Source: a virus
IMG/VR virus record: IMGVR_UViG_3300045421_000405
Span: 1-28,490 of that record
Direction: 5' to 3' (one strand)
DNA: 28,490 nt
Below the pieces are notes generated by a model, which worked only from the letters and a program-made list of their open reading frames with translations, ran no database searches and had not been told where the DNA came from. The position numbers and the translations under genes were made by a program. Shown here one piece after another: positions 941 through 28,490 of the stretch. Within the stretch, counting starts at the first letter, position 1. Each line of letters opens with the position of its first letter.

Positions 941-1124
941 AAATACCATTATATATTACAATGGGCACAAAACCCGTTCTCAAATTATGAGAATTTATAT
1001 AGGCATGAAAACCCGTTCTCAAATTGTGACAAATTTTTGTATACGCCCAAAAACCGGTTCTCAAATTGTGACAGATTTTTGTATACGCCGAAAAACCCGT
1101 TCTCAAATTGTGAGTATCGTGCAT
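933..1124 (-). CDS. Possible small repeat protein in the terminase repeat array
   Basis: This 63-codon frame could start at the ATG at 1122-1124, 13 bases after the small terminase stop, behind a weak GGA. It ends 8 bases inside the large terminase gene, an overlap style common in this genome. It would encode four units beginning HNLRTGF, of 13-14 residues, for example HNLRTGFSAYTKIC. Between the two closest units, two of three base changes are synonymous (ACG/ACC and ATC/ATT). However, repeat spacings divisible by three keep several frames open, including frames on the other strand, so openness alone proves little. No homologous family is recognised. The array may be purely regulatory DNA, and I lean slightly that way. 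Confidence 0.3.
   Translation of the reverse strand: MHDTHNLRTGFSAYTKICHNLRTGFWAYTKICHNLRTGFHAYINSHNLRTGFVPIVIYNGIYV
941..953 (-). promoter_or_regulatory. Putative leaderless promoter -10 of the large terminase gene
   Basis: On the minus strand a perfect TATAAT occupies 948-953, seven bases before the ATG at 940. With normal -10 geometry, transcription would begin at about 941, giving an mRNA with essentially no leader. No purine-rich ribosome site is present. No -35 is seen at 16-18 bp, although the repeat array lies immediately upstream and could bind an activator. Confidence 0.5.
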
Positions 1125-1185
1125 AAGGGATCCAATATCAGTTCTCAAACTCTGAAGGGTTTGAATTAGGGTTCTCAAATTGTAA
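976..1185. repeat. Array of six direct repeats between small and large terminase genes
   Basis: A core of GTTCTCAAATTGTGA type starts at 976, 1015, 1057, 1099, 1141 and 1171, with spacings of 39, 42, 42, 42 and 30 bases. The three middle copies are the most alike, sharing about 40 bases that include a GTATACGCC segment. The two right-hand copies are degenerate and lie at or inside the 3' end of the small terminase gene. The copy at 976 contains a perfect dyad, TTCTCA-N5-TGAGAA; the others keep only TCA-N5-TGA or slightly more. The repeats are contiguous with no unique spacers. Possible roles are a packaging/terminase recognition site, operators or tandem promoters for the large terminase gene, or a coding repeat. 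Confidence 0.92.
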
Positions 1186-2816: not shown

Positions 2817-3564
2817 CTATTTGAAATCCAATCTTTCCGCCAACAATTTCCGCTTCTTGCTTTAGTCTAGGAATTCCTAAACCATGAACTTTTATATATT
2901 CAACTCTATAATTATACCAGCCCTGCACTGCCTGCCACATTTTATCGTCTGTAGTTTTACCTAATTCTTGAAGTTCTTCTGTAGAAATTAAAAAGCTAAG
3001 AACACCTAATGGCATGTATATAACAACATCATAATTACTATCCTTATCTTTTGCATATTTTTTAAGTAACAATTGAAATTGTGTAATTGTATCCTCCACT
3101 GGCTTTCCTGCAAAAAAATCAATGTTCCCGTAAGCATTCCTAATACGCGGACAATAATCATCAACTCCAGCTATTGTTCCAAAACTTCTACAGACCATTG
3201 GTCGAAATCCATAGATCGTACAGCCATTTTTGTAAAATGCACACCATTTTTCTGTTTTACCGCCAAACTCCCAGGTATCATCATGCATAAGTTCTTTTAG
3301 CTTATTAACAATTTCATTAAACCATTGCTTTGCAAATTCTTCACCTTTACTTTCAAGATATAAATAATATTCTTTATTAATATTGTAAGCTATGTTAGCA
3401 CATTCAGCCATTGGAATTGTTAATCCAATTTTACAACAAGTTCCAGTTCCAAGACATTTAAATTTACCTTCATTTTGTTTTGCCTCTAAAACTCTAATAT
3501 GATTGTAGAGCATGTCCATTTCAGCAAATATTGCAATATCATTAACAGCAATTCTTCTTTGCAT
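2773..3564 (-). CDS. YkgJ-like cysteine-cluster (metal-chelating) protein
   Basis: This 263-residue protein carries the cysteine pattern of the YkgJ/UPF0153 family, predicted to bind zinc or an iron cluster. C37 and the C43-C44 pair fall in CLGTGTCC, followed by C108, C115 and C125 in CAFYKNGCTIYGFRPMVCR; the GFRPMVCR segment is the family signature. The biochemical role of this family in phages is not established. The ATG overlaps the stop of the HTH gene upstream (TAATG). The 3' end overlaps the glycosyltransferase start by 44 bases, suggesting coupled expression. There is no signal peptide. The C-terminal half is helical and not recognised. Confidence 0.8.
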   Translation of the reverse strand: MQRRIAVNDIAIFAEMDMLYNHIRVLEAKQNEGKFKCLGTGTCCKIGLTIPMAECANIAYNINKEYYLYLESKGEEFAKQWFNEIVNKLKELMHDDTWEFGGKTEKWCAFYKNGCTIYGFRPMVCRSFGTIAGVDDYCPRIRNAYGNIDFFAGKPVEDTITQFQLLLKKYAKDKDSNYDVVIYMPLGVLSFLISTEELQELGKTTDDKMWQAVQGWYNYRVEYIKVHGLGIPRLKQEAEIVGGKIGFQIDESAMDNSNITDLQ

Positions 3565-3860
3565 TATCTTTTAAAACCCCTTTTTCTCATTTGTATCTCT
3601 TTTCTCCTCTCCCGCTTTCTTTTTTCAACTTGCTGCTGCATAGGGGATTGTGGTCTCCTTTTAGCAGTCGAGCTAAGATTTCTGCCTCTTCCTCTAAATC
3701 TAAGTAGCTGATATTTTTCGCACCAATTATAAAGACCTTGAGGGGTAATTTCTATATTATATGTCTGTTTAAGAAGTTTAACAATATCAGTCAAATTCAT
3801 CCTCTTACGAACATAATGCTCGTACAGCCAACTTTTATCTTTGTAGGGTTCTAGTGCCAT
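3564..3860 (-). CDS. Small basic helix-turn-helix protein
   Basis: This 98-residue protein has an N-terminal domain reading WLYEHYVRKRMNLTDIVKLL, followed by PQGLYNWCEKY at about residues 43-53. The pattern fits a tri-helical HTH of the recombinase or terminase-small type. A strongly basic tail follows, with runs of Arg and Lys from residue 53 to the end. It overlaps the RuvC-like gene upstream by 26 bases and is joined to the cysteine-cluster gene by TAATG. It may be a DNA-binding regulator or an accessory factor for recombination or packaging. It is also a candidate ligand of the terminase repeats, though nothing in the sequence proves that. The family is not recognised precisely. Confidence 0.65.
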   Translation of the reverse strand: MALEPYKDKSWLYEHYVRKRMNLTDIVKLLKQTYNIEITPQGLYNWCEKYQLLRFRGRGRNLSSTAKRRPQSPMQQQVEKRKRERRKEIQMRKRGFKR

Positions 3861-24543: not shown

Positions 24544-24939
24544 TTAGATCTCGTTTAATGTAAGAGAGACATCATAATACGAACATTGAGTTGAGTAATC
24601 TCTTCTTATCAAGTCCTCAGTATAAGAATCTATATAGCAATTAAGTATTTCAGTTTGACCCGGCTTTAATTGAATCGATACAGATGCGGCAGCAGAACCA
24701 TTTGCCAGGGAATATAAGAAATCCCTGCCGACACGACCATCCACAGTTTTTGCCTGAAGACTGGGTAAATACGACCAAGTTAATGAAAATTGCCTTTTAT
24801 TTCTTGAGTAATATCTGCGCCTATGACCAGATGCTAAATCAATATCATTAGCAGCAATCTGTTCAGTAATATTTATCTTTCTATTGTGTTCTGTTATTTC
24901 TATTGAATTAATAGAGATAAGTTTCTGTATCGACATCAT
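24544..24939 (-). CDS. Distal-tail-like protein, short paralogue
   Basis: This 131-residue protein matches the C-terminal domain of its neighbour, with HNRKI, RRRYYSRNKRQFSLTWSYLP, TVDGRVGRDFL and LIRRDYSTQCSYYDVSL. It lacks the repeated stalk. It is encoded directly after the tape-measure protein, the normal place for a distal tail or tail-tip protein. The ATG-ATG start follows AGGGGCGG and overlaps the tape-measure stop. The gene probably arose by tandem duplication; which copy is ancestral is unclear. Two products of this fold could build alternating rings at the tail tip, but that is inference. Confidence 0.72.
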   Translation of the reverse strand: MMSIQKLISINSIEITEHNRKINITEQIAANDIDLASGHRRRYYSRNKRQFSLTWSYLPSLQAKTVDGRVGRDFLYSLANGSAAASVSIQLKPGQTEILNCYIDSYTEDLIRRDYSTQCSYYDVSLTLNEI

Positions 24940-27900
24940 CCGCCCCTATTCAATCCGTTATATGTTCTTATGACTCTATTTTCAAGACCTGCGGCTTTTT
25001 GATTTCTCGGAAGAACTTTTGTGTTGTATTCTTTCATCATTGAATTAAACCACTCCGGTTCACCAACAAATGTATCAACATAGATATTGACATTTTGAGT
25101 AGAAGATCCAGTCGGTGATACCTGATTTGTAGAATTATCAATTCTTACATTTGGCATATTAATATTTGGAATTGAAGGCATTTTTGGATATCTTGGCTTC
25201 GAAAGTTTCATGTTATTCAGTGCATCGAGAGTATCAGTACCAATTCTCTGCACTGCTTTATGGTTAAGTACATACTCACCACCGTGCAATATTGCCGGAA
25301 CCCCCTGTTGCGCGAAACCCTTTGTCATGCCACCATAACCATAGGTCATCATACCGCCCTTCATATATGAGCCAATCTTTCCACCGTTATATCTCCCAGC
25401 ACCTGCAGCCCTCAAATTATTTTTTTCCGCATTCAGTTGTGCCATGGCTTTTGCAGCTGAAGCGTCTGTAAGAGCGCCGGATGCAACTGCTGAAGCAAGA
25501 CTCGCTGCTGTAGCATTCCACTGCGCAGCTGATTTCAGGTATGCCTCTTGCCGCTCCAGGGCGGTTGTCTCTTTACCAACGTCAATTAAGGGGATTTCTG
25601 GGATTACTTCTCTAAACGAATATGTCTTTCCAGCAATTGCGCCAAGACCTACATACTTCAGCCATTCTGGCATTGTGAACGGCTTGCCCGTTATCGTATT
25701 TACACCTTTAATAACTAAATTGATCGCTCCCGCGAACAGATTTGGTATTTTTCCAATTAAACCAATAACAAAGTCAACAGCACCACCAAGTGCCCTTCTT
25801 ATAACATCGGCAACTGCTTCAATTTTTGGCTTAACAAATTCATAGAATGTATTGAATGCAGTTTTAATTTCACCCCAAATATTTTTAATAAAACCTAAAC
25901 CAGCAAGTATTTTATCCCATATCCAGCTTGTAAATTCTTTAAGCATACCTGAGGCCCATGACCAGAAGCTCTTCAGTTTATCCCAAACATCTTGCACTAC
26001 TTCCTTAATTTTTGCAAAGCCATCTTTAATTTTTTCCCATAGCACTTTAGCAAATTCCTGAAGAATGGGCCAGAGCCAGTCCCAAACACTCTGAAATAGA
26101 TCCCAGAAGTTTTGAAGGGCTGTCTTAATAGCCTCCCATGCTAATTTTATTTTATCCCACAACCAACTCCATATCTCCGCCAATATTGGCCCGAGCCAGT
26201 TCCAAACATTCTTGAACAGATCCCAATAGAATTGCAAAATTTCGCTAATCTTCTCCCATGCCCACTTTATACTATTCCACAACCAATTCCATAGCTCTGC
26301 CAATATAGGTCCAATCCAGTTCCAAGCACTCTTGAACAAATCCCAGAAGAATTGAAGGGCTGTTTGAATGCCCTCCCACGCGAATTTTATTCCATTCCAT
26401 AACCAGTCCCATAATTCTGCCAATATAGGTCCAAGCCATTCCCAAACACTCTTAAATAGATCCCAATAGAATTGCAAAATTACGCTAATTTGCTCCCATG
26501 CCCACTTTATTCCGTCCCACAACCAACTCCATAGCTGTTCTAATATTGGCGAAATAAGCTCCCATCCGGACACTATTAGATCCCAGAAGGGCTGAACATA
26601 TGGCTTGATGATCTCCCAAACCCAACCCAAAGCCTCCCAGATACCGTTACCCACAGTCTTAATAAATTCCCATGCTGTTGCTGCAGCAATCTGCAATCCT
26701 TCCCAGAATGCCATAACGTATGGTTTTATAAAGTCCCAAACCGAACCAAGAGCATCCCAGATTCCACTTCCCACAGTCTTAAGAAATTCCCACGCTAGTC
26801 CTGCGAGGTATTTCAAATTTTCCCAGAAGTTCATCACATATGGTGCTATAAAGTCCCAAACCCAACCAATAGCATCCCAAATACCACTACCCACGGTCTT
26901 GAGGAATTCCCACGCTATTCCTGCAAGGTATTTCAAATTGTCCCAGAAGTTCGTAACAAACCCACCAATATTATCCCAAACCCAACCGATAGCATCCCAA
27001 ATACCGCTTCCCACAGTCTTAAGGAATTCCCACGCCCCTCCTGCAGCAGATTTTAAACCTTCCCAGAATGCCATAGCGATCGGTCCAATATTGTTCCAGA
27101 TCCATCCGATAGCATCCCAAATACCGCTTCCCACAGTCTTAAGGAATTCCCACGCCTTTCCTGCGACAACCTTTAGGCCTTCCCAGAATCTTGTAGCAAA
27201 CCCACCAATATTATCCCAGATCCATCCCACAGCGTCCCAGATACCGCTACCAACGGTTTTAAGGAATTCCCATGTCTTTCCTGCAATAATCTTTAAACCT
27301 TCCCAAAATCTTGTAACAAACTCGCCAATTTTACCCCAGATCCATCCCACAGCATCCCAGATACCACTACCCACGGTCTTGATAAAATCCCATGCCTTTC
27401 CTGCAACAACTTTCAAACCTTCCCAGAATCTCATAGCGAACTCGCCAATCTTATCCCAGATCCATCCCACAGCATCCCAGATACCACTACCCACGGTCTT
27501 CAAAAACTCCCATGCCTTTCCTGCGAGATCTTTCAAACCTTCCCAGAAGGCCTTTGCTATTCCCCCAATCTTATCCCAAATCCAGCCAAGAGCATCCCAA
27601 ATACCACTACCCACAGTCTTAAGGAATTCCCATGCTGTTGCTGCAAAGTCCTTCAACCCTTCCCAGAATGCCATCATTATTGGTTTGATTGTATCCCAAA
27701 CCCAACCAAGGAATTTCCAAATAATCTCACCAAGTTGTTTAATATATGGATATACTTTTTTAGCAAAAACTATTAATAATTCAAATGCAAATTTTAGACC
27801 TTTATATATTACTATAAAATATAATGCCAACCGCTCAGCCATTTTTTGCAATAACGTAGCAACGATAAAAATACCAAGCATTAGGACTCTGAAGAGGAAG

Positions 27901-28490
27901 TCTCTAATCCATTTAACAACCGGATTATTCCAAATTGCATTAAGAACATCAAATATAGACTTTGCAACACCGGCAGCAATACCAAGAATTGTTTTCATAA
28001 TACCAAATACAGGCTTTGCAACACTGACGGCAATACCACCAAGAATACTAAATACAGACTTCGCAACATTGCCGACAACACTTATAATTGTTTTAAAAAC
28101 ATTAAATACAGGTTTTCCAACAGTGATGGCAATACTAAATAGCTTACCAAATATATCTTTAGCAAAATTAAATACTTTTTTAAGCACGTCTCCTATGAAA
28201 CTAAATAATGTTTTCAACATATCAAATATTGGAAGAATTAATGGACGTAATATCGGAACTAGATTTTTGCCACCAGTAAGTATAATATCCCATATTCCAT
28301 TTACAATTTTTGTTATTAAATCAAATGTGCCAGCTATAAGATCAAAGAATATATCAAATGGAACCGTAAATACTCTAATAAGTATTCTAATAAGTGGATT
28401 AACAATATCGAGAGTTGCTTTTACAGCCTTCCAGATGGGATCTTTAAATTTATCCATTAAGTCAATAATGAATTTGATACCTTTCAACAA
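24936..28490 (-). CDS. Tail tape-measure protein (N-terminus off window)
   Basis: At least 1184 residues are present and the frame is still open at the right edge. The TTG there is not evidence for a start. The protein sets tail length. Residues 124-188 hold 33-residue amphipathic repeats with AKPVF/AKSVF, followed by two hydrophobic segments (about 191-242). Residues 291-850 hold 14 modules of 40 residues rich in Trp, such as KTVGSGIWDAVGWIWDKIG. The C-terminus has the common tape-measure segment GVPAILHGGEYVLNHKAV after Gly-rich sequence. It ends against the distal-tail-like gene. The long Trp-repeat region is unusual and nearly identical at the DNA level in neighbouring copies. Confidence 0.92.
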   Translation of the reverse strand: MLKGIKFIIDLMDKFKDPIWKAVKATLDIVNPLIRILIRVFTVPFDIFFDLIAGTFDLITKIVNGIWDIILTGGKNLVPILRPLILPIFDMLKTLFSFIGDVLKKVFNFAKDIFGKLFSIAITVGKPVFNVFKTIISVVGNVAKSVFSILGGIAVSVAKPVFGIMKTILGIAAGVAKSIFDVLNAIWNNPVVKWIRDFLFRVLMLGIFIVATLLQKMAERLALYFIVIYKGLKFAFELLIVFAKKVYPYIKQLGEIIWKFLGWVWDTIKPIMMAFWEGLKDFAATAWEFLKTVGSGIWDALGWIWDKIGGIAKAFWEGLKDLAGKAWEFLKTVGSGIWDAVGWIWDKIGEFAMRFWEGLKVVAGKAWDFIKTVGSGIWDAVGWIWGKIGEFVTRFWEGLKIIAGKTWEFLKTVGSGIWDAVGWIWDNIGGFATRFWEGLKVVAGKAWEFLKTVGSGIWDAIGWIWNNIGPIAMAFWEGLKSAAGGAWEFLKTVGSGIWDAIGWVWDNIGGFVTNFWDNLKYLAGIAWEFLKTVGSGIWDAIGWVWDFIAPYVMNFWENLKYLAGLAWEFLKTVGSGIWDALGSVWDFIKPYVMAFWEGLQIAAATAWEFIKTVGNGIWEALGWVWEIIKPYVQPFWDLIVSGWELISPILEQLWSWLWDGIKWAWEQISVILQFYWDLFKSVWEWLGPILAELWDWLWNGIKFAWEGIQTALQFFWDLFKSAWNWIGPILAELWNWLWNSIKWAWEKISEILQFYWDLFKNVWNWLGPILAEIWSWLWDKIKLAWEAIKTALQNFWDLFQSVWDWLWPILQEFAKVLWEKIKDGFAKIKEVVQDVWDKLKSFWSWASGMLKEFTSWIWDKILAGLGFIKNIWGEIKTAFNTFYEFVKPKIEAVADVIRRALGGAVDFVIGLIGKIPNLFAGAINLVIKGVNTITGKPFTMPEWLKYVGLGAIAGKTYSFREVIPEIPLIDVGKETTALERQEAYLKSAAQWNATAASLASAVASGALTDASAAKAMAQLNAEKNNLRAAGAGRYNGGKIGSYMKGGMMTYGYGGMTKGFAQQGVPAILHGGEYVLNHKAVQRIGTDTLDALNNMKLSKPRYPKMPSIPNINMPNVRIDNSTNQVSPTGSSTQNVNIYVDTFVGEPEWFNSMMKEYNTKVLPRNQKAAGLENRVIRTYNGLNRGG
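25941..27620 (-). repeat. Fourteen 120-base coding modules in the tape-measure gene
   Basis: Nine modules beginning KTVGSGIW (unit 1 from 27620) are followed by five related Trp-rich modules of the form LW.WLW...WDLFK..W.W. All keep an exact 120-base period. Adjacent copies share long identical runs, for example in the segments beginning 27001 and 27121, and 27361 and 27481. That points to recent tandem duplication or gene conversion. Each module adds 40 residues of predicted helix. Confidence 0.93.
27927..28121 (-). repeat. 99-base amphipathic repeats near the tape-measure N-terminus
   Basis: Two full units of 33 residues start VGKPVF and VAKPVF. Each is split by an AKSVF/AKSIF half-unit (18 plus 15 residues). 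They are rich in Gly, Ala, Val and Phe and precede the hydrophobic segments. Confidence 0.75.

Follow-up and report, generated by a model that had tools for sequence, protein, structure and literature searches.

A tandem array of six bipartite units lies between the putative small terminase gene (terS) and the large terminase gene (terL) of a viral contig, and it is a candidate packaging-initiation (pac-type) recognition site for the small terminase protein TerS of this phage clade, a reading to which we give a probability of roughly 55%. Judged from the genomes compared, the array is a clade-wide feature, conserved at one locus with strict orientation. A TerS-binding pac site would explain together its position, tandem repetition, polarity, locus specificity, and motif turnover. 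We infer that TerS binds the units and that cutting starts at the array: oligomeric TerS would attach through an N-terminal helix-turn-helix (HTH) to the tandem bipartite units at the 3′ end of terS, the bound TerS would recruit TerL to make the first cut in concatemeric DNA, and the uniform direction of the units would set the polarity of packaging.

The array and its flanking genes

The window, i.e., the entire IMG/VR contig of 28490 bases, has on its minus strand the gene order terS (1138–1770), array, terL (2–949). The product of terL, an N-terminal part of 316 aa cut by the contig end, matches PHROG 17415 (terminase large subunit) and is 41–45% identical to terminases of Streptomyces phages (Stanwilliamsviridae); a full-length homolog of 579 aa also matches PHROG terminases. 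The HTH protein encoded upstream of terL (210 aa) is probably TerS, mainly by its position and also by weak profile matches (PHROG 9507, 5e-8; HTH PHROG 3855, 1e-4; Pfam Terminase_5 just under the cut-off). It comprises an N-terminal HTH at about residues 12–60, a conserved helical core (64–178), and a variable tail (179–210), and no homolog was matched among isolated phages. Its structure model is all-helical and of low confidence (pLDDT 57), and a fold search with this model gave no terminase fold and no useful match. Elsewhere on the minus strand, a 98-aa HTH-like protein upstream of terS (3564–3860) has no PHROG and no Pfam family above the cut-off, and a probable tape-measure protein (24936–28490) contains many tandem repeats of about 33 residues (WEFLKTVGSGIWDAIGWIWD...). 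A WhiB-like gene in the window suggests that the hosts of the clade are probably actinobacteria.

The six GTTCTCAAATTGTGA-type cores span positions 976–1185. They start at 976, 1015, 1057, 1099, 1141, and 1171, with spacings of 39, 42, 42, 42, and 30, and have, in this order, 1, 0, 0, 0, 2, and 1 mismatches to GTTCTCAAATTGTGA. These positions and spacings are exactly those of the original prediction, which also listed the perfect dyad TTCTCA-N5-TGAGAA, found at 977–993. It further described the array as bridging the two terminase genes; this is so at the 3′ end of terS, overlapped by the units at 1141 and 1171, but the array ends 26 nt before the listed terL start (949). There are no further matches to GTTCTCAAATTGTGA with two mismatches or fewer outside the array in the whole window. 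With up to three mismatches the window has seven matches, against 1.44 expected, and none of 100 shuffles reaches seven.

Because the minus strand carries the large genes, the functional reading of the core is TCACAATTTGAGAAC. Read in this way, each unit has a second part that is absent from the earlier listing, GCC-NTT, about 18 nt downstream of the core. The unit is thus bipartite, with TCANAATTTGAGANC (box A) followed about 18 nt on by GCC-NTT (box B). All the boxes are on the minus strand. Box A was located by core search, together with aligned relatives for units 3 to 6, and box B was read from the sequence and from the layout in relatives. Unit 1 has box A (TTACAATTTGAGAAC) at 1171–1185, within the coding sequence of terS (LQFEN). 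Unit 2 has box A (TCAGAGTTTGAGAAC) at 1141–1155, within the end of terS (SEFEN), and a box B–like CCCTTATG at 1122–1129. Units 3 and 4 share the same boxes A (TCACAATTTGAGAAC, at 1099–1113 and 1057–1071) and B (GGCGTATAC, at 1081–1089 and 1039–1047). Unit 5 has TCACAATTTGAGAAC at 1015–1029 and GCCTATATA at 996–1004. Unit 6, the nearest to terL, has box A (TCATAATTTGAGAAC) at 976–990, as part of the perfect dyad, and box B (GCCCATTGT) at 958–966.

Among relatives, the aligned units read TCA[GTC]AATTTGAGA[ACT]C, then a T-rich spacer, and then [GC]CC-NTT about 18 nt after the start of TTGAGA. The box A letters that served to collect the units were set by the search itself and are hence uninformative; the informative free positions are T at −7, C at +7, GCC at +18 to +20, and T at +22. 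Box B is poorly conserved among window-like genomes (TATACA, TTTATG, ATTACC, AAACCC). The internal layout of the units is constant and the spacing between units varies between 34 and 45 nt, so that every unit acts as a separate element of two parts. Among 100 unit-to-unit distances in relatives, 46 are of 42 nt, 19 of 45 nt, and 26 of 34–36 nt.

These spacings also bear on whether the repeats are translated. A minus-strand open reading frame (933–1223, 96 aa) reads the array in frame as HNLRTGF repeats, and every spacing in the window is a multiple of three, as are 80 of the 100 in relatives, the latter in part because some arrays fall in the coding sequence of terS. Spacings of 34, 35, 41, and 43 nt in relatives break the frame, however, and the open reading frame has no family match in profile searches. 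A repeat peptide is therefore extremely improbable, and a coding repeat was rejected on the loss of frame in relatives. A CRISPR array was also rejected, since the cores are just 15 nt long and the intervening DNA has a box B common to the units. The same applies to a structured RNA element, as the array has no match in Rfam and its fold stability is unremarkable (z-score −1.4).

Conservation and turnover at the terminase junction

With TerS and TerL as queries, viral contigs yielded 60 distinct terS–terL junctions, and a scan using more distant TerS sequences raised the number to 96. Using the strict pattern CANWWTTTGARA, box A is present one to five times, in the direction of transcription, in 53 of the 96. 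This count is conservative, as the strict pattern fits just four of the six copies of the window. Of 2.9 million viral contigs, 75 match a tandem-pair pattern, and in 73 the match is at the terS–terL junction; both genes flank 71 of these, and the other two are cut by the end of the contig or of the examined stretch. The check proposed with the original prediction, whether relatives have the same array at this place, is thus strongly passed. Matches to the pattern in bacterial genomes (L252 and L253) are not flanked by terS or terL. Satellites bearing the same array were considered and rejected, given the 73 junction matches and the lack of shared flanking genes around L226, L248, and the bacterial L252 and L253.

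In 17 long contigs of relatives, the box occurs almost exclusively at the array locus and has one direction. The array sits in the interior of long contigs, which argues against a cos site with fixed cohesive ends, although intracellular concatemers could look alike. Seven of about 80 contig right ends fall 592–751 nt after the start of terS, against about two expected from neighboring bins, an excess that we set aside because it may equally reflect assembly breaks. We also rejected a physical end of the genome at either the array or the distant site described below: contigs end from about 50 nt to several kilobases before the distant region, at no single point.

Copy number varies among close relatives: L109 and L041, whose terS genes are 95% identical in DNA, have two and four units, respectively. 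Other lineages have repeats of their own at the same junction, namely TCAAGAGACG (L081), CAAGGAAGG (L133), GGCAGAAGAGAGGG (L128), and TAGGATTTGTGAAGTC (L136). Compared with shuffles, repetition is clear in these four and in L152 and L161, weaker in L130, L086, L162, L085, and L159, and absent in L160, L125, and L150. Far lineages have a conserved [CG]ATAAAG just before terL, sometimes in single copy, and some have no recognizable unit. The junctions of eight isolated relatives have no array. The occurrence of a single unit or of none recognizable in far relatives, as well as the lack of the array in the isolated ones, counts against the pac reading.

The variable copy number, and the likeness of repeats within one array, would also be found in a mobile-element site, a recombination hotspot, or a functionless repeat. 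Such an origin is very improbable given the conservation of one locus across a deep clade, the strict orientation, and the matching unit at one distant locus.

Stanwilliamsviridae (Streptomyces phages such as BillNye and Mildred21) are the nearest named relatives by TerL, and there too terL comes after a small gene. Unlike the window, they have no tandem array at the junction, and several have a terminator-like inverted repeat just before terL. This inverted repeat, at the place of the array, is found in BillNye, Blueeyedbeauty, Mildred21, and StarPlatinum (L254, L166, L255, and L259).

A solitary distant unit

Six window-like long genomes (G001, G002, G003, G004, G006, and G008) have one matching unit 22–26 kb downstream of terL, within a large intergenic region and in the same direction as the array. 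The distant unit was sought with each lineage's own box A. In G002 it carries the local variant GAGATC, as in the array of that genome; in G003 the match is in a looser form. In G019, whose array is of the AAAGAGACGG type, two units with a like box are present at the corresponding distant place. With their own box A as query, no distant unit was found in G015, G018, G020, G021, and G023. Where read, a terminator-like hairpin precedes the distant unit in the same direction, and in window-like genomes no gene directly follows it. The match of motif between the array and the distant unit is more simply viewed as reflecting a common reader of both sites, with shared ancestry as a possible cause.

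A more specific proposal is that the array and the distant unit are partners, paired by TerS rings as in the twin-ring synapsis of T4, thereby licensing packaging or fixing terminal redundancy, with both sites changing their recognition sequence together. We regard this elaboration as improbable. Also improbable is an iteron-type replication origin or a partition site, bound by a phage initiator or a ParB-like protein. Direct repeats of fixed polarity are iteron-like, the second copy lies in a large non-coding region, and one relative encodes a ParB-like protein; yet the array tracks the terminase genes and not an initiator gene, and the replication genes upstream in the window lack a copy.

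The distant region has other repeated features. Beyond the distant unit, small paralogous genes (VNLKDIQSRLVKRGREAYEN... / SRGRK...RNHK) occupy a large region, seen in L167–L170 and, with kilobase values in terS orientation, in G018 (15–23 kb) and G019 (84.6–91 kb), for which the loci are L337–L348. The same region in G018 and G019 has many GTAATATTAC-type palindromes, often just after CATAAAG. In G003 (62.9–63.9 kb, L352) and G004 (46.9–47.9 kb, L369–L370), also in terS orientation, repeated TTGAGAATGTGTACTCAA-like dyads occur among paralogous genes and are possibly operators.

Possible roles: packaging site or promoter

The alternative that deserves most weight, though clearly less probable than a pac site, is a dedicated promoter or operator of terL. 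On this reading, box A would act as an activator site or −35-like element and box B as a −10-like element; expression of terL and of the small genes that follow would be driven or gated by the tandem copies, and a non-coding transcript would start from the distant unit. The offset of about 18 nt between boxes is fixed, and the last TTGAGA lies about 33–50 nt before the start of the terL match in window-like junctions; this short and near-constant distance is promoter-like and counts against the pac reading. The box B of far lineages is [CG]ATAAAG, and CATAAAG is strand-biased and intergenic genome-wide, with 23 forward and 2 reverse intergenic copies in G018 and 11 and 0 in G019. The position of the distant unit after a terminator-like hairpin of the same direction also fits a promoter.

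Against this, the boxes form no sigma-70-type site: a scan of positions 600–2000 for TTGACA/TATAAT-like pairs with 16–18 nt spacing found fewer sites than in shuffles, and none made of the two boxes. The poor conservation of box B in window-like genomes and the lack of a gene directly after their distant unit are also unfavorable, and RNA polymerase could not simultaneously sit on every one of up to six units spaced by 30–45 nt. Box A is not found upstream of portal, protease, and other operons in window-like genomes, where it occurs almost solely at the array and at the one distant unit, and this is not the distribution of a general late promoter; CATAAAG alone is more widespread in far lineages. 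The suggestion, made with the original prediction, of an operator array of late transcription is hence unsupported in window-like genomes, as other late genes are not preceded by the box. The intergenic regions of some of these genomes contain a few canonical sites of the TATAATAGA type (TATAAT/TACAAT) near start codons. In L345, L352, L369, and others such sites are at most about 10 nt from the start codon (e.g., GGTATAATAGATAAATGGC), which suggests leaderless promoters of actinobacterial type.

The other suggestion, a packaging recognition site, agrees with position, tandem repetition in one direction, near-exclusivity to the locus, and clade-wide motif turnover, and the array remains a candidate for this role. 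The site overlaps the 3′ end of the small terminase gene, with TerS assigned by position, and the candidate sites are repeated and locus-specific, apart from the solitary extra unit in some genomes. Co-variation between protein and motif gives no support, since the association excess of the TerS HTH (0.035, with relatedness uncontrolled) is close to that of two control segments of the same protein (0.010 and 0.025).

Several known systems have a similar arrangement. In phage P1 pac and lambda cosB, several short terminase-binding sites are repeated in or near the small terminase gene, and their packaging role was shown experimentally; their sequence and layout are unrelated to those of the array. 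In T4, the sequence preferred by TerS lies at the 3′ end of the terS gene itself (gene 16), with a homologous sequence in gene 19, and this pair is the basis of the twin-ring synapsis model (PMC10893049). The likeness is in a preferred or candidate TerS site at the terS 3′ end and a second similar sequence elsewhere, but the T4 sequence is GC-rich and forms no tandem array, and here the second site is 22–26 kb away. The pac site of SPP1 spans promoters and the start of terS and has three different repeat boxes; its direct repeats, which lie around that start, are proposed to bind TerS (PMC4737164). Hence, the pac and promoter readings can both hold. In SPP1 and SF6, as here, direct repeats adjoin the small terminase gene and differ among relatives (PMC4737164), whereas in the window one bipartite unit is repeated at the terS–terL junction. 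The DNA-binding domain of SF6 TerS has little specificity for pac repeats (PMC4737164), which makes it less certain that TerS is always the reader of repeats near terS. No such arrays in uncultured phages were found in the literature searched, which included few subscription journals. Most likely, the array belongs to a known class of packaging recognition sites, is unusual in its layout, and is joined in nearer relatives by a partner site far away.

The recognition of its own genome by the small terminase is poorly defined, and in SF6 the repeats presumed to be the signal are not bound specifically by the DNA-binding domain (PMC4737164). The junctions provide a large natural alignment in which many lineages have one layout and different motifs at one locus, the nearer lineages having a second matching site. 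These lineage-specific motifs make recognition testable by swapping motifs and TerS proteins. The array can also serve to mark candidate packaging sites in these uncultured phages, a widespread group whose hosts are probably actinobacteria.
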